Below are positions 18,957 through 36,997 of a stretch of DNA of 64,000 nt, one piece after another. The translations under genes were made by a program, and so were the position numbers. The notes under the pieces were generated by a model. It was given only the letters and a program-made list of their open reading frames with translations, was not told the DNA's origin and ran no database searches. Source of the stretch: a virus; IMG/VR virus record IMGVR_UViG_3300020377_000001, positions 1 through 64,000 of that record; one strand, given 5' to 3'. Positions within the stretch are counted from its first letter, which is position 1. Each line of letters opens with the position of its first letter.

Positions 18957-18987
18957 TCATGAAAGGTTTTCTGTGTTGGCCGTAATT
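18957..18987 (-). promoter_or_regulatory. Repeated phage promoter, copy a
   Basis: Minus-strand TTACGG, 17 bp containing AAAACCTT at its end, then TCATGA in the -10 position, upstream of the gene starting at 18905/18932. One of seven copies between 18.9 and 22.2 kb with identical spacing. The -10 is the most divergent of the set. Confidence 0.55.
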
Positions 18988-19045
18988 CTGTGCAAACCAA
19001 CCGCAAAAGTTGAAGTGATCGCGAATAACAAAGATCGGTGGGCGC

Positions 19046-19381
19046 CTAGCTTGGGGCCGGAAGGCTCAGTGTAACGCGACCACGCTGCATCCCAAATATG
19101 GACAGTCCACCCTTTGTTGTAAAGCATTCGTCTAACACAAACATCGACTGGTCTATGATGGTCTGTACACGCCTGGACTCACGACCGAGCGTTCTGCTGC
19201 CAGGTGTCAATTCGCTATGGGCCAGCCTTAAGGTCTGGCGCTCAACAAGCATGAGCTTATCCCAGACGTAGCAAATCGACTTTTGCCTATCTTGCTCTGT
19301 CTTGTATCCATGAACCACCAGCTCAAAAAGTAGTCCCTTCACGTCCAAAGTCGCAATGTATATCGGATTGTCGAAGATCAT
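19046..19381 (-). CDS. Small hypothetical protein with its own promoter
   Basis: A 111-residue protein beginning 18 bp after the -10 of promoter copy b, which lies inside the end of the upstream gene. No good ribosome site precedes the ATG. The N-terminal half is alpha/beta (IYIATLDVKGLLFELVVHGY, a helix to about residue 50), then a basic loop. No domain recognised. Confidence 0.52.
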   Translation of the reverse strand: MIFDNPIYIATLDVKGLLFELVVHGYKTEQDRQKSICYVWDKLMLVERQTLRLAHSELTPGSRTLGRESRRVQTIIDQSMFVLDECFTTKGGLSIFGMQRGRVTLSLPAPS

Positions 19382-19695
19382 GTGACAGGCCGTCCATGCT
19401 CTATAAAGGTTTTTTGATCTTGACGTAATTTGCGCTGTTTCTCGGTAGTTTCTTCGAGTAGCTCAGACCACTTTTCTCTCGTGTCTAGGTGATCTGAGGC
19501 CGCACGGAAGTCATCAAGAAACTCCATCAACTGGTGGTCCTTGATTGACTCGGCGATTTGATAGATTTTCTCGCAGGTCTGCTCTGTCCAGATCATGCAT
19601 GGATCGCACCCGCCATCTGCCTGAGTATAGACGTACCCACACTCGGTGCAGGTGATGTCATCACCCTCTGTGATCCAGTTGTCGTAAGATTTCAT
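19378..19695 (-). CDS. Small zinc-binding hypothetical protein
   Basis: A 105-residue protein from ATG 19695, with GGAG upstream and ATGA overlaps at both ends of its operon. The N-terminal CTECGYVYTQADGGCDPC gives four Cys in two C-x2-C pairs, a likely zinc ribbon at residues 15-32. The rest is an acidic, charged helix (KIYQIAESIKDHQLMEFL...). Promoter copy b for the next gene lies within its 3' end. Confidence 0.57.
   Translation of the reverse strand: MKSYDNWITEGDDITCTECGYVYTQADGGCDPCMIWTEQTCEKIYQIAESIKDHQLMEFLDDFRAASDHLDTREKWSELLEETTEKQRKLRQDQKTFIEHGRPVT
19400..19430 (-). promoter_or_regulatory. Repeated phage promoter, copy b
   Basis: Minus-strand TTACGT, 17 bp ending AAAAAACCTT, then TATAGA, placed 18 bp before ATG 19381 and inside the 3' end of the upstream coding sequence. 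One of four copies with a perfect TATAGA. Confidence 0.68.
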
Positions 19696-19898
19696 GTTGT
19701 CGCTCCTGGCCTGCCAAAGTACCCTTGGCAGCCTGTACACCTGAGAGCTGACCACCCACCAAAGGACACCTTGTGGACCTCCTTACAATGCGGGCATACG
19801 ACTATACACATGTACATGGTTCTGTCGGCATGATTGTTATACACCAGCCACTTTTGAAGCATGACTGATTGTTCAGGTTTTGATTGTTGGATATTCAT
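19692..19898 (-). CDS. Small zinc-binding hypothetical protein
   Basis: A 68-residue protein from ATG 19898, with GGAGGATCAG upstream; the longer frame to 20048 lies antisense-like over the upstream gene. C-terminal pairs CPHC and CTGC form a probable zinc ribbon. ATGA overlaps join it to both neighbours, in the transcript starting at promoter copy c. Confidence 0.57.
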   Translation of the reverse strand: MNIQQSKPEQSVMLQKWLVYNNHADRTMYMCIVVCPHCKEVHKVSFGGWSALRCTGCQGYFGRPGATT

Positions 19899-20191
19899 CT
19901 GATCCTCCGAATGTGAATCGAGGAGACGCCACAGCCTGGCAGGATGCCGCTGTGCTTCCCGTTGCCTGTGCCAAAGCGATTGACATGGACAGCGAAGTTC
20001 TCTGTAAGTTGGTCTGCTAGGTCCTCGCGTTGCCGGTGGCCAAGCCATTTCATGTCGGCATGAGTAACGAGCTTTGAGCCCTTGATGAGACGGTTTAGTG
20101 TTGCGACGAAGTCGTCAACCGTGTTGAGGAAAGTATAGTCGAATTTATTAGTCTGAGTATCTTCATATGCATCGATAAAATCTTTGAACAT
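19895..20191 (-). CDS. Small hypothetical protein, operon head
   Basis: A 98-residue protein from ATG 20191, with AAAGGA upstream and 18 bp after the TATAGA of promoter copy c. It is helical and acidic at the start (MFKDFIDAYEDTQTN) and basic at the end. It heads an operon of three ATGA-coupled genes running to 19378. No domain recognised. Confidence 0.55.
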   Translation of the reverse strand: MFKDFIDAYEDTQTNKFDYTFLNTVDDFVATLNRLIKGSKLVTHADMKWLGHRQREDLADQLTENFAVHVNRFGTGNGKHSGILPGCGVSSIHIRRIR

Positions 20192-20209
20192 CGTTGGTCC
20201 TTTCAAAGG

Positions 20210-20240
20210 TCTATAAAGGTTTTTCTATTGTTCCGTAATT
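20210..20240 (-). promoter_or_regulatory. Repeated phage promoter, copy c
   Basis: Minus-strand TTACGG, 17 bp ending AAAAACCTT, then TATAGA, 18 bp before ATG 20191. Same architecture as the other six copies. Confidence 0.7.
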
Positions 20241-20260
20241 AAAGGGTTATGTCAAAAGTG

Positions 20261-20827
20261 TCATGCGTTATATAAGCCTTGCTCGTCTATAGGAATTTTA
20301 CTCACCGAGTCAATAAACTCTTCAAATTGAAGCCTGACCTCCTTAAGGGTTTCAGCATCGTGAACCTGGCACAGGTAAACGCAATCACCATATTTGTACT
20401 CAAGGTCGCCTTCAAAGTATCCATGAGAATCCCCAGACACATGTCCTGCAAGGATGCCATCGCAAAAGACCAGAAAACGGCGTGGTTCAAGCGCAGGTAA
20501 GGGATTCGATTGGACCTCGATCTGGATCTTGATCTTGTTTTTATCCCAGTCAAAGGTAGGTAGTGCAATGTTGACAAATGCATCAGAGTCAAAGACGATC
20601 ATATCAAAGCCATTCTTGTGTGCGTATGAGAGCACCTTCGTTATCCATTCTGGCTCGCTTGAGTAGTCTTCGTATGGATCGAAGGATACGTACATGAAGT
20701 AGCCGTATAGAAACTTATACGCTGAGTGTGTGCCAAAGCTTGGCTCAGACGAAGGCATGTGTGCGGTGCTGATATGTAGTGTTCTAAATTCTGTTCGACA
20801 GGCGTTCTTAGGTCTTTGGTTATTCAT
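20261..20827 (-). CDS. Hypothetical protein with its own promoter
   Basis: A 188-residue protein starting 21 bp after the TATAGA of promoter copy d, with GGAGC in between. It has an aromatic N-terminal half (YKFLYGYFMYVSFDPYEDYS), then alternating strands (IKIQIEVQ, RFLVFCDGILAGHV, YKYGDCVYLCQVH) and a C-terminal helix. No known family. It is a monocistronic unit. Confidence 0.55.
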   Translation of the reverse strand: MNNQRPKNACRTEFRTLHISTAHMPSSEPSFGTHSAYKFLYGYFMYVSFDPYEDYSSEPEWITKVLSYAHKNGFDMIVFDSDAFVNIALPTFDWDKNKIKIQIEVQSNPLPALEPRRFLVFCDGILAGHVSGDSHGYFEGDLEYKYGDCVYLCQVHDAETLKEVRLQFEEFIDSVSKIPIDEQGLYNA

Positions 20828-20848
20828 GATGATAATGCTCCGTTGATT

Positions 20849-20879
20849 TCTATAAAGGTTTTCTGAGAGTGACGTAATT
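20849..20879 (-). promoter_or_regulatory. Repeated phage promoter, copy d
   Basis: Minus-strand TTACGT, 17 bp ending AAAACCTT, then TATAGA, 21 bp before ATG 20827. The -35 end touches the stop of the upstream gene at 20879. Confidence 0.7.
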
Positions 20880-21067
20880 TAGTCTTCCACATCCTCGGCA
20901 TCGCAATCGCAGTATGAGCATGTAAAACACGCTGCATCTACGAAGTGCCTGTCAACCGACTCGACAAGCCTGCGACGGTCATCTAAAGACACGGTTATAT
21001 GAAAGTATGCCTCTGTCTTTGGGCATGTTCTGCTTTCGCATTCTGGGTTACTACATCGTAACCTCAT
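20879..21067 (-). CDS. Small zinc-binding hypothetical protein
   Basis: A 62-residue protein, ATGA-coupled to its upstream neighbour. Cys pattern is C-x4-C-x4-C near the N-terminus (RCSNPECESRTC) and C-x2-C-x2-C-x-C near the end (CFTCSYCDC), with an acidic tail. It resembles short Ogr/zinc-finger-like phage proteins, but the family is not certain. Confidence 0.57.
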   Translation of the reverse strand: MRLRCSNPECESRTCPKTEAYFHITVSLDDRRRLVESVDRHFVDAACFTCSYCDCDAEDVED

Positions 21068-21291
21068 TGGTCTACCCTGCTTTCAATCTCGTGAACAACC
21101 TCACCAGAATCATGTGACCATGCCACCACGCGCAGTGCGCCATCCGCGTAATAGACACCGAACCGCTCAACGCCGTCGTCGTCCATGATCACCAGGGCGC
21201 CACCCTGCATCTCAATGGAGATGTCTGCACAGTCAACAGTGCCATCCCCGTTTGCGTCGTCACTAAGCCTTAAATCAATTCGCTGAATCAT
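21064..21291 (-). CDS. Small protein with dockerin/EF-hand-like calcium loop
   Basis: A 75-residue acidic protein from ATG 21291 in ATGA overlap with the gene before it; GGGGG precedes the start. DANGDGTVDCADI matches the 12-residue Ca2+-binding loop of dockerin and EF-hand modules (D-x-N-x-D-G-x-V-D-x-x-D). The C-terminal half is beta-like (GALVIMDDDGVERFGVYYADGAL begins this part). A single loop only; no cohesin partner is evident. Function unknown. Confidence 0.57.
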   Translation of the reverse strand: MIQRIDLRLSDDANGDGTVDCADISIEMQGGALVIMDDDGVERFGVYYADGALRVVAWSHDSGEVVHEIESRVDQ

Positions 21292-21419
21292 CGCGCACCC
21301 CCAGTCATTTTTTCTAGCCATTCGTTTGCCTCAACCTTGCAGACAAAGAGTCTGATCAGCTGATCGTTCCATAACCCCAACCAGCACTGATTTATCTCTG
21401 AGTACTTAACACTAATCAT
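21288..21419 (-). CDS. Very small hypothetical protein
   Basis: A 43-residue frame with ATGA overlaps at both ends, between two other short genes in the transcript from promoter copy e. It is rich in Trp (four), with core pattern INQCWLGLWNDQLIRLFV. Coupled overlaps on both sides are strong support for translation despite the length. Confidence 0.5.
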   Translation of the reverse strand: MISVKYSEINQCWLGLWNDQLIRLFVCKVEANEWLEKMTGGAR

Positions 21420-21586
21420 GAGTAGTCCCTTTCAATGTAGGCCCAAACCTGGCCCATTTTGACCTCGCCGTGCTCGCAGGCAAGATCGTATGCCATCCTG
21501 TCTATCTCGTCTTTACAATCCTCTCGACTCCGAGCGACATACTCTACGGTCGAGTTTAAGTTGAAGTTAACAATCACCACTTTCAT
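21416..21586 (-). CDS. Small hypothetical protein, operon head
   Basis: A 56-residue protein from ATG 21586, with GGAG 5 bp upstream, 14 bp after the TATAGA of promoter copy e. The N-terminal strand VVIVNFNLN is followed by an acidic helix. It heads four ATGA-coupled small genes down to 20879. Confidence 0.52.
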   Translation of the reverse strand: MKVVIVNFNLNSTVEYVARSREDCKDEIDRMAYDLACEHGEVKMGQVWAYIERDYS

Positions 21587-21600
21587 ATCTGCTCCAATGC

Positions 21601-21631
21601 TCTATAAAGGTTTTTTAATCTTGACGTAATT
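21601..21631 (-). promoter_or_regulatory. Repeated phage promoter, copy e
   Basis: Minus-strand TTACGT, 17 bp ending AAAAAACCTT, then TATAGA, 14 bp before ATG 21586. The predicted leader is extremely short and overlaps the ribosome site. Confidence 0.7.
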
Positions 21632-21649
21632 AAGCTAACCGCAACATAA

Positions 21650-22003
21650 CTATACACTTCTCTGAATTGACTTGATTTGGTACACCACCGTGTACTCGAA
21701 GTCACAAGACGTACAGAATAATTGAGAATAAAACAGGGTAAGGCCGGCACAGTACCGTTCACCATCTGCCTCGATATTATCGCACCCACACTTTGGGCAC
21801 GTACTTAACGCTCTATGAATAAGAGATTGCTCGTCTGTGGTCCTCTCAACCACTTTGACCACATTACGATTCTTGGATTTCAGGTGAGCGACGGTCTGAT
21901 CACGAAAGTCATCGCCCCAGACCTCATCCACAACCGTGTACCCATCGGCACCCTGGTGATAAACCGCGTAGCTTTTCTGTCTCTCTTCTATCTGATAGCT
22001 CAT
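21650..22003 (-). CDS. Hypothetical protein with C-x2-C pairs
   Basis: A 117-residue protein from ATG 22003 (AAAGGTGG upstream; ATG 22018 would add 5 residues and lies 15 bp after the -10 of copy f). The C-terminal half holds CPKCGC and FCTSCDFEY, a zinc-ribbon pattern. The first gene of the leftward small-gene block, behind tandem promoter copies f and g. Confidence 0.57.
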   Translation of the reverse strand: MSYQIEERQKSYAVYHQGADGYTVVDEVWGDDFRDQTVAHLKSKNRNVVKVVERTTDEQSLIHRALSTCPKCGCDNIEADGERYCAGLTLFYSQLFCTSCDFEYTVVYQIKSIQRSV

Positions 22004-22033
22004 TCTGCCACCTTTCATTTTGCTCTCGGAAGT

Positions 22034-22063
22034 TCCAGAGCCGTTTTTGAGATCTGACGTAAT
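22034..22063 (-). promoter_or_regulatory. Repeated phage promoter, copy f
   Basis: Minus-strand TTACGT, 17 bp including CAAAAACGGC, then TCTGGA. A divergent copy with conserved spacing, upstream of the gene starting at 22003/22018 and in tandem with copy g. Confidence 0.5.
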
Positions 22064-22106
22064 CGCCGATCCCCAGGAAAAGTTTTTTCACTCTAGCCGC
22101 CCAAGT

Positions 22107-22137
22107 TCCACAAAGGTTTTTGGGATCGGCCGTAATT
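22107..22137 (-). promoter_or_regulatory. Repeated phage promoter, copy g
   Basis: Minus-strand TTACGG, 17 bp ending AAAAACCTT, then TGTGGA. It is 73 bp upstream of copy f with no gene between, giving tandem promoters at the head of the leftward block. Confidence 0.55.
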
Positions 22138-27174: not shown

Positions 27175-27238
27175 ACTTAGTTATAAACAACTAAGTTAGT
27201 TATATATATATATATATATTATTATACTAATTAGTTAG
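27175..27238. repeat. A/T-rich inverted repeat and TA tract
   Basis: ACTTAGTT (27175-27182) and AACTAAGT (27189-27196) form a perfect inverted repeat next to an alternating TA run (about 27199-27219) and ACTAATTAGTTAGG. This is an easily melted segment, as found in DNA-unwinding elements, or a UP-element-like site beside the alpha-CTD-like gene. Confidence 0.5.
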
Positions 27239-27351: not shown

Positions 27352-27858
27352 TTACGCTATCTGGATGCCGATTTGTAGCCATTGATTACAATCGGGGTTT
27401 TTGGGCATAAATTTAGGATCAAGTCGCCGCTTTTCGGACTCTGTTATGAGTCGGAGGTTTTTGCGTTCGAGAGCATACTCGAGCTCATCGACAGACTTGG
27501 CTCCGATGCCCGGTTTCTCGAGCAACTCACGTCTTGTAAATTGAACGACGTCTCGGACCTTGCCTGCCTGTATGCACGTCGCAATTCGGTTTGCGGTCTT
27601 GGTGCTGATTTCGAGTCGATGGATTCCGCTTTCAAGGATTGAGTCTTTGTCAATTCCTCGAACATTCGCTTCAAAGGTTCTGCCGTTGGGCGACATTCCT
27701 GTAATCTTCGATTTGGCTGCGTGATAGTTCAACTTCAAAACTTCAGATCCGTCCTCAGAGTAGAAAATGAGCCCCTCACCAGTTTGCTGCCCATAGCAAA
27801 CGAGCTCTTCACTCGTTAAGGGATCAAAGACAGTAATTGTCTGTGTCGGCCTCGTCAT
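27352..27858 (-). CDS. RNA polymerase alpha-CTD-like domain protein
   Basis: A 168-residue protein. The N-terminal part (about 1-80) is unrecognised and beta-rich. Residues about 80-135 read LEISTKTANRIATC, VRDVVQFTRRELLEKPGIGAKSVDELEYALERKNL, which align with the C-terminal domain of bacterial RpoA (LELTVRSANCL... GDLVQRT.VELL..PN.GKKSL.EI...L...GL). Positions that in E. coli alpha contact UP-element DNA appear as Lys (for R265), Asn (N268), Lys (K298) and Ser (S299). The alpha NTD is absent, so it cannot replace alpha. It may bind A/T-rich promoter DNA or sigma/activators to redirect host polymerase. It is a single gene flanked by non-coding DNA. Confidence 0.72.
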   Translation of the reverse strand: MTRPTQTITVFDPLTSEELVCYGQQTGEGLIFYSEDGSEVLKLNYHAAKSKITGMSPNGRTFEANVRGIDKDSILESGIHRLEISTKTANRIATCIQAGKVRDVVQFTRRELLEKPGIGAKSVDELEYALERKNLRLITESEKRRLDPKFMPKNPDCNQWLQIGIQIA

Positions 27859-28024
27859 CGGTCGTTCGTCTCAAAATGTTTTTGGATTAACCGATTATAG
27901 GCATGGTTATGCTCAGTTTTGGAAAAAAAGGCGCATTTTGGGGACATGGTTGTGATAAAAACAAAAAAATCCCACTTTTCGCGGACGCATGATATCGGTA
28001 TTTGTTTTACTTAAAGGAGTTTAA

Positions 28025-28669
28025 GTGTCTTTTGAAATTAGATCGATAACCAGAACCGAGGCTTTGCCGTTATTTCAAAGGTATCACGGGTATAAGTCAA
28101 TGGGGGGCGTCTGTACATATCTATTCGGAGTATTAGAGCGCGGTTCTGTTGTCGCTGCGTTCGCCTGGCAGCCTCCAGCGGCAGGTTGTGCCAGATCTGT
28201 GCTTCCTGATGCCAGTTACGGTGTTTTATGCTTATCTAGAATGGTGGCTGTCCCAAAGGAAGAGCGTAATCTACGACACCTGTCAAAGCCTCTGCGATTT
28301 CAAGTGCGAAATTTAATAGATAGGGGGCGATGGCCTGCTTTGGTCACATTCTCAGATGAAGGCTTGGGGCACACAGGGCACGTATACAAGTGCTCTGGAT
28401 GGAAAAAAACCTCTCGAAAGAAGCGCTCACAGTTCATGGACAAAGAAGGCAGAAGGACTGCACCGTATAGTGACGGAAAAAAGGTAGAAGGGCTGATTAA
28501 GGTAGGGGCAGCCTATATTCAGCGGTGGGAGAAGCATGCTGTTCCACCTGAAGAGGCTGCAGGCTGGATTGAGGCAAACGGTTGGCGGCGTGAAGCGATC
28601 CCAGGAAAGTTCTGGTCATCAGGCAACCAGGCTTATCGGATGTCAAAACAGCAATCCATGCCATTTTAG
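28025..28669 (+). CDS. Mom-like DNA modification protein (GNAT-type)
   Basis: A 214-residue protein from GTG 28025 with AAAGGAG 6 bp upstream. It resembles the phage Mu Mom family, GNAT-fold enzymes that convert adenine in DNA to a bulky N6-modified base. Seen: YLFGVLERGSVVAAFAWQPP, then the core CLSRMVAVPKEERNL... LSKPLRF, and ALVTFSDEGLGHTGHVYKCSGW, matching the SRL/R and GH-G-YqA-W pattern of Mom proteins. It is 74 bp before a D12 adenine methylase. Simple acetyltransferase is the alternative. Confidence 0.65.
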   Translation: MSFEIRSITRTEALPLFQRYHGYKSMGGVCTYLFGVLERGSVVAAFAWQPPAAGCARSVLPDASYGVLCLSRMVAVPKEERNLRHLSKPLRFQVRNLIDRGRWPALVTFSDEGLGHTGHVYKCSGWKKTSRKKRSQFMDKEGRRTAPYSDGKKVEGLIKVGAAYIQRWEKHAVPPEEAAGWIEANGWRREAIPGKFWSSGNQAYRMSKQQSMPF

Positions 28670-28742: not shown

Positions 28743-29564
28743 ATGAAATACACAGGCAAAAGCGTTCTGCGATACCCGGGTGGCAAGACAAGGGCAGTCT
28801 CTCTGATTATGCCATTTCTTACTCGATTCGAGGCAAAGGTGCTGGTGTCCCCGTTTTTTGGTGGTGGGTCGATAGAGTTTGCTTGGGCTCAGCAAAAGCC
28901 GAGTTGTCGTGTTGAGGGGTATGATATCTATCCACCGCTTGTGGCGTTTTGGAGGGAGGCTCTGTCAAACCCAGGACCTCTAAGCAACAAGGTTGACGCC
29001 TATCGACCAATGGACAAGGATTTGTTCTTATCACTACAGAAGAAGCTCCCAAGCCTTTCTGGGCGGGATGCTGCTGCAGCGTTCTATGCCCTTAACAGGT
29101 CTAGCTTTTCGGGCGCCACAATGAGTGGAGGGATGTCTCCAGGCGTAAAGAGGTTTACAGAGAGCTCAATACAAAGACTTGCCGATTTCCATGCGCCGAA
29201 TGTGAAGGTTCGACTAGGCGACGTGTTTGACGTTGTCGAAGACCTCATTGACTCAGACCCTGAAGACTCGGTGATATATCTGGACCCCCCATACAAGATT
29301 GATGACTCGGCTTTATATGGACACAAAGGAAACGCACACCGAGGATTCGAGCACGAAAGGCTGGCCGAGCTAGTGCATAGACTGAACGGTAAAGGATTTC
29401 GTCTGGTTTTAAGTTACAATGACAGTGATTCAATACGAGCGCTGTATAGCCGCTATTTGATCACTCCGTTGTCTTGGTCATACGGGATGAAGAATGTGGC
29501 AGGAGGCTCGATGGGCTCATCTTCTGAGCTTTTAATTTTGTCGGAACCCTTCAGTACCCAATAA
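28743..29564 (+). CDS. D12-class N6-adenine DNA methyltransferase
   Basis: A 273-residue Dam-like enzyme from ATG 28743, with AAAGGA upstream; the frame above overlaps the Mom-like gene. SAM site: LRYPGGKTRA and SPFFGGGSIEFA. Catalytic motif DPPY (SVIYLDPPYKID), and ALNRSSFSGA typical of D12 enzymes. It methylates adenine N6. Together with the PF05869-like Dam at 13.7 kb the phage has two unrelated adenine methylases. Confidence 0.9.
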   Translation: MKYTGKSVLRYPGGKTRAVSLIMPFLTRFEAKVLVSPFFGGGSIEFAWAQQKPSCRVEGYDIYPPLVAFWREALSNPGPLSNKVDAYRPMDKDLFLSLQKKLPSLSGRDAAAAFYALNRSSFSGATMSGGMSPGVKRFTESSIQRLADFHAPNVKVRLGDVFDVVEDLIDSDPEDSVIYLDPPYKIDDSALYGHKGNAHRGFEHERLAELVHRLNGKGFRLVLSYNDSDSIRALYSRYLITPLSWSYGMKNVAGGSMGSSSELLILSEPFSTQ

Positions 29565-33452: not shown

Positions 33453-33651
33453 ATACAAGTATACATGCAGCGAATGCGGTAATAGCTTTCTTGTTGTTCA
33501 AGGTATCAATGATGAACCCGTATCTACTTGTTACTTGCGAGTAGATGAGTCCTCCGATAGCGACGAAAGATGTACGGGGTCTGTCCGCAGAGTCCCCGCG
33601 TCTGTGGGTTTCACGTTAAAAGGGAACGGGTGGTTTAAAGATGGCTACTAA
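33445..33651 (+). CDS. FmdB-type zinc ribbon protein
   Basis: A 68-residue protein of the FmdB regulatory family: MPKYKYTCSECGNSFLVVQ, then a second Cys pair (C-x-...-RCTG) and the terminal GFTLKGNGWFKDGY typical of the family. Zinc-binding, possibly a transcription cofactor. Overlaps both neighbours by 8-11 bp. Confidence 0.8.
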   Translation: MPKYKYTCSECGNSFLVVQGINDEPVSTCYLRVDESSDSDERCTGSVRRVPASVGFTLKGNGWFKDGY

Positions 33652-34258
33652 GGGTAAGGTTATTTGGAGCGGAACCAGGGAGCTCGAGACGTCATTGGTA
33701 AAGATCTCAGACCTAAACCCAGATCCCGACAATCTCAACTTCCACCCAGAAGTAAGTTACGAGGTTCTCTCTCAAGTCATCTCTCGGTTTGGGCAACATA
33801 AGCCAATTACAGTACACAATGGGACGGTGATTTGCGGAAATGGCGTGTTTGAGGCTTGTAAGCGACTGAAGTTTACCCATGTGGCAATCAGCACCTTTGA
33901 GGGGACCGATGACGAAGCAAAGGCCCTGGCGATTGCAGACAACAAGACAAAGTCCTTGAGCTACTTCAATTCCGACGTGGGAAGCATTGTTCAAGATTTG
34001 ATGCCCACATTTAGCCCAGAGGAGCTCGGAGGCTGGGGTAGCCTCGACATCGACATACCTGACATAGATCTTGATGAGGACGATGAGTTGGACGAGCTCA
34101 TGGAGTCTCCACCAGAGCAAAAGACTGTGAGGTTGACGTCTGAGCAGTGGGAGGTGGTAGGGTCTGCGATTCAAAAGCTTAGGGAGATCAACGGTCAGGC
34201 GATCTCCGAGGGGAGATGTATCGAATTGATATCAGCGGACTATCTATCAGGTTCTTGA
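33641..34258 (+). CDS. ParB/Srx-fold nuclease-like domain protein
   Basis: A 205-residue protein. The ParB-like domain (about 15-115) shows LVKISDLNPDPDNLNFHP, SRFGQHKPITVHNGTVICGN, FEACKRL and DDEAKALAIADNKT. An acidic linker (DIDLDEDDELDELMES) and a helical tail follow. In phages such domains occur in DNA-modifying or partition-like proteins. It lacks the central HTH of true ParB. It lies 370 bp from the FtsZ-like gene, which makes a DNA-organising role tempting but unproven. Confidence 0.8.
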   Translation: MATKGKVIWSGTRELETSLVKISDLNPDPDNLNFHPEVSYEVLSQVISRFGQHKPITVHNGTVICGNGVFEACKRLKFTHVAISTFEGTDDEAKALAIADNKTKSLSYFNSDVGSIVQDLMPTFSPEELGGWGSLDIDIPDIDLDEDDELDELMESPPEQKTVRLTSEQWEVVGSAIQKLREINGQAISEGRCIELISADYLSGS

Positions 34259-34365: not shown

Positions 34366-34629
34366 TTGAGTTTCGAGCATATCAATTCTGGTTTAGCTAT
34401 TCTTGTCGCCGTCTGTGGCGCTGTTTGGTCAATTGGAAGCGTCTCATCGAAAGCGGACGTTGCGCTAGAGAAGGCTGCATCGTCTGAAGAGAGTATGGTT
34501 CGTCTCGATGACAAGCTAGATCGACTGATTGAAGAGGTTGGAAAGATTAAGACCAATGTCGCGGTCGTCAGAGCAAAGGTCGAATCCATCGATTCTGTCG
34601 TTACCCCTATTAAGAACTCAGAAGACTAG
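34366..34629 (+). CDS. Membrane-anchored coiled-coil protein (holin/spanin-like)
   Basis: An 87-residue protein, TTG start at 34366, with TAAGGT upstream. An N-terminal membrane segment (GLAILVAVCGAVWSIGSV) is followed by a coiled coil (ESMVRLDDKLDRLIEEVGKI). This is the layout of i-spanins and XhlA-like lysis proteins. It is downstream of the CHAP endolysin and converges with the FtsZ-like gene, overlapping by 4 bp. Confidence 0.55.
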   Translation: MSFEHINSGLAILVAVCGAVWSIGSVSSKADVALEKAASSEESMVRLDDKLDRLIEEVGKIKTNVAVVRAKVESIDSVVTPIKNSED

Positions 34630-35663
34630 AGTTCTTGTATTACCTTTTTCTCTGGCCCCTTTATTCCCCGTGATATGCAATAGATAACAGGCTCAGATAT
34701 GGTTGGGTCTTCGTAGATGCCTTTATGAAGATAGCCTCCTCGAAGTTGCGTGAGAACCATCTGCAGGCCGGATTCAAGGTTTTCAAAGAACATCTCGTTG
34801 GTCTCAAAGACCTCTGTGGGAACCTTAATGATTATGCCAAAACTCTGTTGTGACACGTCCGATTCGGAGTGTGAAAACAGGGTGCTCGAAAACAACTGAA
34901 AAACACAGTTCTTGATGGACTGCGCTGAGCAGTCTGCATTGATTGATACTTTCCCAAACGAAACGCAGCCGGGCTTGAGCATAATTGTCTCGAGGTCAGA
35001 CTTGTCCATACACTCGAAGTCGCTGGGTGTTTGGGTTATGGTATTAAACTCCTCAAACAGTCCCGCTACGTGCTCGTTGGCGAGACTCCACATGTTCTTC
35101 ATTGTCGCTTTTGGTATGACATTCTTGATTCTGCGATTGTTTAGAATCATCAAAGGTGAGATTTGTCCATCGCCGCACATTTTGCAAACAGCCTGCAGGA
35201 GGTCTTTGGCGTTCTTTTTAACAATCGTACTAGAGCACTCAAGCTTTCTGGGGCTCGTAATAATCAAGCCCACAGAGTCCGGCTTTTTTCTTCCCTCAGA
35301 CATGAACTTCTTGGACAGTTCAATTAAGGGTATTGCGCCACCCGTGCCAGTGCCACCACCGGCTCCAGCGCAAACGATGATTCTGTCAACGTCCCCAAAG
35401 AACTCCTCCATCATCAACTCAATCATGTCTTCGGAGTCGTTGACGGCCTGCTCTGCAATCTTAGGCTGTTTGCCAGCACCGTCTTCAGACTTCCCAACTA
35501 TAAGCCTTCTTTCGATGCCTACATTTAATGCTTCCAGATCGATTCTGGCAGTATTCAGGTAAATGCTCTCGTAGCCCAGGTCTGCAAAGGATTTTGCTAT
35601 CTTGCATCCCCCTTGACCAATGCCAACAAACCCAACATTGAATGATCTTTTTGGCGTACCCAT
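34626..35663 (-). CDS. FtsZ/tubulin-superfamily GTPase
   Basis: A 345-residue protein from ATG 35663, with AAGGAG 5 bp upstream. It carries the tubulin/FtsZ landmarks in order: T1 loop VGIGQGGC (13-20), T2-like LNTAR (36-40), T3-like GKSEDGAGKQPKIAEQ, the signature GGGTGTG (102-108), and a T7-like catalytic loop MDKSDLETIM (219-228) with both Asp residues. All GTP-binding and catalytic elements seem intact, so it probably forms filaments. Phage relatives by analogy are PhuZ and TubZ, used for positioning or segregating DNA. Co-transcribed with the HTH-phosphoesterase. Confidence 0.82.
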   Translation of the reverse strand: MGTPKRSFNVGFVGIGQGGCKIAKSFADLGYESIYLNTARIDLEALNVGIERRLIVGKSEDGAGKQPKIAEQAVNDSEDMIELMMEEFFGDVDRIIVCAGAGGGTGTGGAIPLIELSKKFMSEGRKKPDSVGLIITSPRKLECSSTIVKKNAKDLLQAVCKMCGDGQISPLMILNNRRIKNVIPKATMKNMWSLANEHVAGLFEEFNTITQTPSDFECMDKSDLETIMLKPGCVSFGKVSINADCSAQSIKNCVFQLFSSTLFSHSESDVSQQSFGIIIKVPTEVFETNEMFFENLESGLQMVLTQLRGGYLHKGIYEDPTISEPVIYCISRGIKGPEKKVIQEL

Positions 35664-35665
35664 GA

Positions 35666-36997
35666 CTACTCCTTCGAACTTGGCTCTATATCTCTTCCCA
35701 CATAAACTTTCCCGTTGTAAACACATTTACCGTCGTTGATGTGCAGCAACTGCATATGGTTTACGCCATCAGAGTCTCGAATCACTAAGCCGATCCCGTG
35801 TTGCCAATCTTGGTCTGGTCTACCCTTCCCAGTTGGAACAAGTCTCGGTTTGACAGAGCACAGGGTGCCAGGACTCATGGCTGAAATTGTGACATGCTCA
35901 TCCTGCCCATTCTTTCCTGGGACAGTTCTTGTCGAGCAGGCGATCTCTCTTCGGTGTATGTGTCCAACAATTTGACTGTGTCTTGCTCCAGACAAAATTG
36001 AGCTGACCGTCTGCCCCCCTTTGGGTCTAACGATGTGTCCGTGATGAACTTTAATATCGTTAAATAGCCAGTAGACCTTCCCGTATGGCTTAATGTAAGA
36101 AATGCCCAGCTTGTCGAGGCAAAGCAATCTTTCCACCGATAGCATTGGTGGACCCAGAATGTCATCGATTGGACGAAGTACTGCAGCCTCTTGAACATTC
36201 TGCAGTTGCTTCGACAGCCTAAGCTCGTGATTGCCTTCGCAGAGAGTGACCTTGCCGTTGGTTGTACCTACTAAAACCCTTAGCCATTCACCGAGTTCTT
36301 GTAGCGCTGGCTGGATCAGGTACTTTGCGTCCGGTTCAAGAGGAAAGGTGGATAACCCTCCAAAGTCGATCATGTCACCAAGTAACACGATTTCGTCAGG
36401 CTGAATGTCCGCGCTGATTTGCGTTACGACATCACATGCTCGCCGATCGTGCATTGGTATTAGCTCTTGAATCACTTTACCTGTTTTCTCGCAGGTTCTC
36501 TTGACTGACCTAAAACCATGCTGGCTGTCGGGCACAATCAAGGCAATTTTTTTAGCATTCTTTACATGCTTTTTACCTTTTGGCTTTTTTAGGTTTCTAC
36601 CGAGCGTTATGGGCTTGATCCAGTAGTCTGGTTTGCGCTCTAGCCAAGCCTTGACCTGCCACATTTCTGTTGGACCTTCTTTGCCCATCTGGTCCCATTT
36701 GTTGACCACCTTTTTTACAACAACCCACTCGTCGAGGTCCACATTCGCCTCGATCATGAGTTGCTCTACGCTTCTAACACCCTTTCCAGTCAGAACTCGA
36801 CGTCCCGATTCTGAGGTTTCTTGAATCTTGTTGTTTTCAGAAAAAAGTAGTCCGTTCTGTTTTGCCCACTTTAAAATCCGATGAAGCCTGCTTCTGCTAA
36901 TGCCTAAGGATTCAGCAGCAGCGGTCTTGCTGCCGTGCTCCTCAACCGCTTTTTTTATTTGCTTGAGCTCATCGGGAGAGTTTGTTGGTTTTCGCAT
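35666..36997 (-). CDS. Metallophosphoesterase with N-terminal HTH
   Basis: A 443-residue protein from ATG 36997, with GGAGGG upstream. Residues about 1-45 are a helix-turn-helix (KTAAAESLGISRSRLHRIL). The calcineurin-like domain has all metal motifs: PDSQHG, LLGDMID, EGNHELR, VHHGH and GHIHRRE. Fusion of a DNA-binding HTH to a phosphoesterase is found in several phages. It may be a site-directed nuclease or phosphatase. It ends 2 bp before the FtsZ-like start, so the two are translated from one transcript. Confidence 0.82.
   Translation of the reverse strand: MRKPTNSPDELKQIKKAVEEHGSKTAAAESLGISRSRLHRILKWAKQNGLLFSENNKIQETSESGRRVLTGKGVRSVEQLMIEANVDLDEWVVVKKVVNKWDQMGKEGPTEMWQVKAWLERKPDYWIKPITLGRNLKKPKGKKHVKNAKKIALIVPDSQHGFRSVKRTCEKTGKVIQELIPMHDRRACDVVTQISADIQPDEIVLLGDMIDFGGLSTFPLEPDAKYLIQPALQELGEWLRVLVGTTNGKVTLCEGNHELRLSKQLQNVQEAAVLRPIDDILGPPMLSVERLLCLDKLGISYIKPYGKVYWLFNDIKVHHGHIVRPKGGQTVSSILSGARHSQIVGHIHRREIACSTRTVPGKNGQDEHVTISAMSPGTLCSVKPRLVPTGKGRPDQDWQHGIGLVIRDSDGVNHMQLLHINDGKCVYNGKVYVGRDIEPSSKE

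Follow-up and report, generated by a model that had tools for sequence, protein, structure and literature searches.

A divergent phage alpha-CTD-like protein as a candidate regulator acting at its own A-tract-rich spacer

Alpha-CTD proteins already known from phages

Phage-encoded stand-alone proteins built on the C-terminal domain of the RNA polymerase alpha subunit (alpha-CTD) are already annotated, and the protein studied here, P0001, is a further, divergent example. With the E. coli alpha-CTD as query, such proteins are found in isolated phages; gp5 of Bacillus phage vB_BmeM-Goe8 (210 aa) is annotated "RNA polymerase subunit alpha," and gp26 of Microbacterium phage Mazun (141 aa) is annotated "DNA binding protein." BFVD contains many entries from uncultured Caudovirales, about 100 to 140 aa long, with the name "RNA polymerase, alpha subunit, C-terminal," as well as alpha-CTD entries from Rhodococcus phage Finch and Mycobacterium phage Mithril. 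When viral contigs were scanned with Firmicutes-type alpha-CTDs, 43 loci were found, and many of these encode a sigma-region-4-like stretch, often accompanied by a helix-turn-helix (HTH), N-terminal to a strong alpha-CTD (L093-L131; two such proteins were checked against PHROGs). These fusions could span -35 and UP-type DNA. In the searched part of the open-licence literature, no phage stand-alone alpha-CTD surfaced that had been characterized for function.

Other arrangements and doubtful cases also occur. In Ruegeria phage vB_RpoS-V16, gp23 (L084, 3432-4298) has an N-terminal alpha-CTD followed by a pyrophosphatase-like domain. A match in MT836458 is a real small alpha-CTD protein adjoining a large ATPase, and this record is perhaps not a phage, as the ATPase resembles a conjugation protein by eye. 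Several alpha-CTD matches in records named as phages were rejected, as they proved to be genuine rpoA genes and the DNA is thus probably bacterial despite the phage name.

P0001 and its alpha-CTD-like domain

The virus record is 75,141 bases long, and the window, the whole stretch of DNA that was analyzed, covers 64 kb of it. The record includes a terminase gene, recognized by tblastn against annotated phages, and long tail-like open reading frames (ORFs); no tRNA or Rfam matches were found within the 64-kb window. The ORF that an earlier note on this DNA had placed at 27352-27858 has exactly those coordinates, and its strand, which the note did not give, is minus. The gene and the parts of its protein are as follows.

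27352-27858, minus strand: P0001 gene, encoding a 168-aa alpha-CTD-like protein (ATG at 27858, stop ending at 27352)
27646-27858, minus strand: N-terminal region, residues 1-71, predicted to be beta-rich, without family match
27448-27645, minus strand: alpha-CTD-like domain, residues 72-137, with family and structure matches
27355-27447, minus strand: C-terminal tail, residues 138-168, past the end of the family match and modeled with low confidence

In a profile search, residues 72-131 match the RpoA CTD family PF03118 at 24.3 bits (E 2.6e-5), a marginal score that is barely above the curated cut-off of 23.8 bits; a second profile search gave 25.9 bits. The best generic helix-hairpin-helix (HhH) model, HHH_5, reaches only 13.1 bits. 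The C-terminal ends of NCBIfam rpoA models also match (E 2.8e-6 to 4.4e-5), and alpha-CTDs are the top matches when solved structures (PDB) are searched by sequence. Identity to the E. coli alpha-CTD is about 35%, with a raw score of 88 for the domain, compared to a mean of 25 and a maximum of 46 in 2000 shuffles. Judged by its sequence, the region from residue 72 to residue 137 is a divergent RNA polymerase alpha-CTD, and the match is not one of chance when about one hundred genes per window are allowed for. Other phage alpha-CTDs score 50 to 94 bits with the same PF03118 model, and P0001 is far more divergent than these. The rpoA models align by their CTD part alone (26.5 bits, compared to a cut-off of 277); the alpha N-terminal domain (alpha-NTD) is absent, and P0001 therefore cannot be a polymerase subunit. 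In place of the alpha-NTD, residues 1-70 have no Pfam match over cut-off, and the searches found no homolog of this region.

The fold points in the same direction. A single-sequence AlphaFold model of the whole protein is uninformative (mean pLDDT 41); at this low confidence, its six strands fall between residues 6 and 67, and its helices span 86-98, 109-114, and 123-132. Residues 1-70 thus look beta-rich. For residues 66-150, modeled with an alignment of 24 phage alpha-CTD fragments, pLDDT rises to 83, and the best PDB matches found by Foldseek are RpoA alpha-CTDs. By VIA-align, the domain model superimposes on the alpha-CTD of an Spx complex with a Z of 11.3 (rmsd 1.1 over 67 residues) and on the E. 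coli alpha-CTD with a Z of about 11; the best non-RpoA HhH domain listed is Dmc1, at a Z of 7.7. As the alignment behind the model consisted of alpha-CTDs only, these values indicate compatibility and are not fully independent proof. The modeled domain is compatible with the alpha-CTD fold, including helix 1, the short helices, helix 4, and the HhH arrangement. The earlier note had described a stand-alone alpha-CTD-like protein with a region of unknown family replacing the alpha-NTD, and had proposed that profile comparison and structure prediction could separate an alpha-CTD from a generic HhH domain. That description is borne out, and both the sequence and the modeled fold favor alpha-CTD character.

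These comparisons also bear on the idea that P0001 is an HhH DNA-binding protein acting outside transcription, as an accessory to DNA modification, replication, or partition. The domain does carry a PGIG HhH motif, the alpha-CTD core is of the HhH type like such domains (hence the Dmc1 match), and the neighboring genes, mom-like and methyltransferase, are DNA-modification genes. However, the PF03118 score is well ahead of that of HHH_5, and alpha-CTDs lead the structural matches, although with the restricted alignment noted above. We consider a role of this kind quite unlikely.

Alignments place P0001 residues in E. coli numbering by adding 178 before, and 177 after, a one-residue insertion that follows helix 1. 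DNA binding by the E. coli alpha-CTD depends critically on R265 and N268, which contact backbone and minor groove (PMC11434276). The likeness of P0001 to the RpoA CTD extends from sequence and modeled fold to DNA-contact positions, as N90 corresponds to N268, G119 to G296, K121 to K298, S122 to S299, and E125 to E302. Besides the missing alpha-NTD and the insertion, the differences are Lys (K87) at the R265 position, where the retrieved RpoA proteins carry Arg, and Arg in place of both C269 (R91) and D259 (R81). The R265K substitution assigned by the alignment preserves charge, and most of the predicted DNA-contact face is retained. The equivalences that the earlier note had given for R265, N268, K298, and S299 are confirmed by this alignment.

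Two surface patches bear on a possible takeover of the host, in which the free domain would occupy host UP elements or block the sigma and activator contacts of the host alpha-CTD, and so redirect polymerase toward phage promoters and away from those of the host. Host alpha is a known target of phages, Rac being one example (PMC7552054). An alpha-CTD-type surface is partly kept in P0001, and E83 corresponds to E261, a member of the sigma-contacting patch. Yet Arg stands in place of D259, and the patch for activator contact around 285-288 reads T-R-R-E instead of T-E-V-E. On balance, host takeover is unlikely.

No close relatives of P0001 were found in the viral contigs, genome contigs, phage records, or plasmids searched; one candidate, L001, was rejected as its reading frame has stops. 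In fifty records with the same terminase, many of them fragments, there was no match to PF03118, and the nearest record by terminase (L004, 89%) is 31.8 kb long and probably does not extend to the P0001 region. Looking for sister phages via close relatives of the neighboring Mom-like and TubZ-like proteins likewise found none. An alignment-guided genome scan returned full-length RpoA proteins only, from several phyla, so that no donor lineage can be named for the domain.

The Goe8 and Mazun proteins resemble P0001 in having an alpha-CTD without an alpha-NTD, preceded by an N-terminal region of unknown kind. The N-terminal regions of the known phage alpha-CTDs differ from that of P0001 in sequence, and no such region is common to the known examples; the Goe8 and Mazun domains also retain R265, where P0001 has Lys. 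The sigma-region-4-like fusions share with P0001 a C-terminal alpha-CTD in a phage regulatory protein, whereas no sigma-4 or HTH region was detected in P0001 by the libraries searched.

The substitution of R265, the inserted residue, the lack of close relatives, and the marginal family score could together describe a decaying alpha-CTD remnant without a DNA-binding role, with the N-terminal region as the working part of the protein. However, the 168-aa frame is intact and most contact residues are retained despite divergence elsewhere, and we regard decay as very improbable.

The divergent spacer and its surroundings

The P0001 gene directly adjoins a mom-like gene that is transcribed away from it, and the features of this region are as follows.

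27859-28024, no strand: divergent intergenic region of 166 bp, a candidate operator with A-tracts and TTTTGGR words
27894-27899, minus strand: TATAAT, candidate -10 of the P0001 gene, read from the sequence
28025-28669, plus strand: Mom-like DNA modification gene (PF25680, 44.9 bits compared to a cut-off of 27.1; phrog_1384, E 2.9e-13)
28743-29564, plus strand: D12-class adenine DNA methyltransferase gene, downstream of the mom-like gene (PF02086, 74.7 bits)

The longest ORF of the methyltransferase begins at 28536, and 28743 is the likelier start. The Mom-like protein had no tblastn match in annotated phages at E 1e-5.

The spacer has a GC content of 37% and contains nine A/T runs of 4 or more. 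Within the 64 kb, the 166-bp stretch at 27873-28038 ranks first, with 48 bases in A/T runs of at least 4, compared to 31 in the next best. Dinucleotide shuffles give p 0.005 for the spacer A-tracts, a result that partly reflects composition and that we treat as a lead, the test having been devised after the spacer was seen. Three TTTTGGR words occur in the spacer (at 27880, 27917, and 27936), where 0.09 are expected from the window. At a distance of 17 bp upstream of the TATAAT, the -35 is poor (CCAAAA), but A-tracts surround this -35 position and continue upstream of it; the TATAAT was not reported by a consensus promoter scan, which demands both boxes. This candidate promoter could reflect aid from an alpha-CTD-type contact. 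Host alpha-CTD alone would explain an A-tract-flanked TATAAT equally well.

The presence of a mom-type gene invites comparison with phage Mu, in which the C protein activates mom (PMC4461284). Mu C is like P0001 only by analogy, as a phage regulator considered alongside a mom-type gene; the two proteins are unrelated, and a Mu-like scheme for P0001 is analogy, not evidence. It is distinctly improbable that P0001 is a captured alpha-CTD turned promoter-specific regulator that switches a mom-type operon from its own divergent A-tract promoter, and thus a mom regulator distinct from Mu C. A Mom-like gene occurs near the alpha-CTD gene in just one of 39 other alpha-CTD phage records, where the two are not adjacent, so the linkage is not conserved. 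In that record (L133/L134, L127), a Mom-like frame with one stop within the match lies a few kilobases from a sigma-region-4-like/alpha-CTD gene.

The earlier note had also connected P0001 to a promoter array with A-tracts at 18.9-22.2 kb. The promoter-like array itself is real, consisting of six minus-strand sites at 18962-22136 in which ATTACG and AACCTTT are separated by about 12 bases, often with ATAGA following, located among small minus-strand genes. The pattern was found nowhere else in the 75-kb record, and a reversed control pattern gave no match. Its A-tract lies within the -35/-10 spacer, beside the -10-like box, whereas alpha-CTD normally binds upstream of -35. The motif is also absent near P0001 and the mom-like gene, and the proposed tie between the array and P0001 is therefore unsupported by the sequence.

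Downstream of the P0001 gene, the segment 27160-27238 is very AT-rich and includes an AT repeat as well as a loose palindrome. Here the earlier note had seen an adjoining A/T-rich inverted repeat; the AT run is present (27184-27238), but it contains only a loose 71% palindrome and lies past the 3' end of the gene. Elsewhere in the window are genes for a TubZ/FtsZ-like GTPase (34626-35726, minus strand; Pfam Tubulin, E 4.5e-10, and TubZ-like_C, E 5e-4) and, near it, a ParB-like protein (33641-34258, plus strand), which suggests a plasmid-like partition system in a phage. In annotated phages, the TubZ-like protein has very weak relatives only (Bacillus phage G, 25%).

Proposed role of P0001

We give an about even chance to the reading that P0001 is a phage transcription regulator that binds A-tract DNA via its alpha-CTD-like domain, most likely at its own divergent spacer. 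We favor it because the RpoA CTD family match exceeds that of generic HhH models, the domain model matches alpha-CTDs well above Dmc1, the residues equivalent to N268, G296, K298, S299, and E302 are kept, the stretch at 27873-28038 is the richest in A/T runs, and the alpha-CTDs of other phage proteins frequently occur in fusions with transcription modules such as sigma-region-4-like and HTH regions. Counted against it are the Lys at R265, the Arg at C269, the marginal family match, and a mom neighbor that is not a conserved partner; in addition, the A-tracts could be an UP element used by host alpha alone.

For such a regulator, the C-terminal domain would likely grip the minor groove of A-tract DNA, and the beta-rich N-terminal region would probably serve in dimerization or partner contact. 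The likeliest site of action would be the A-tract spacer between the P0001 promoter and the divergent mom-like and methyltransferase genes, where P0001 would control its own gene and possibly DNA modification. We infer the DNA binding and its target, as well as the direction of control and any host polymerase contact; binding of A/T-rich DNA and recruitment of polymerase, or competition for it, are plausible.

In databases, phage alpha-CTD proteins are scattered under borrowed labels, for example "RNA polymerase subunit alpha." With its compact size and a well-defined, A-tract-rich candidate target nearby, P0001 would make it simple to ask whether an alpha-CTD on its own can regulate transcription or compete with host alpha.
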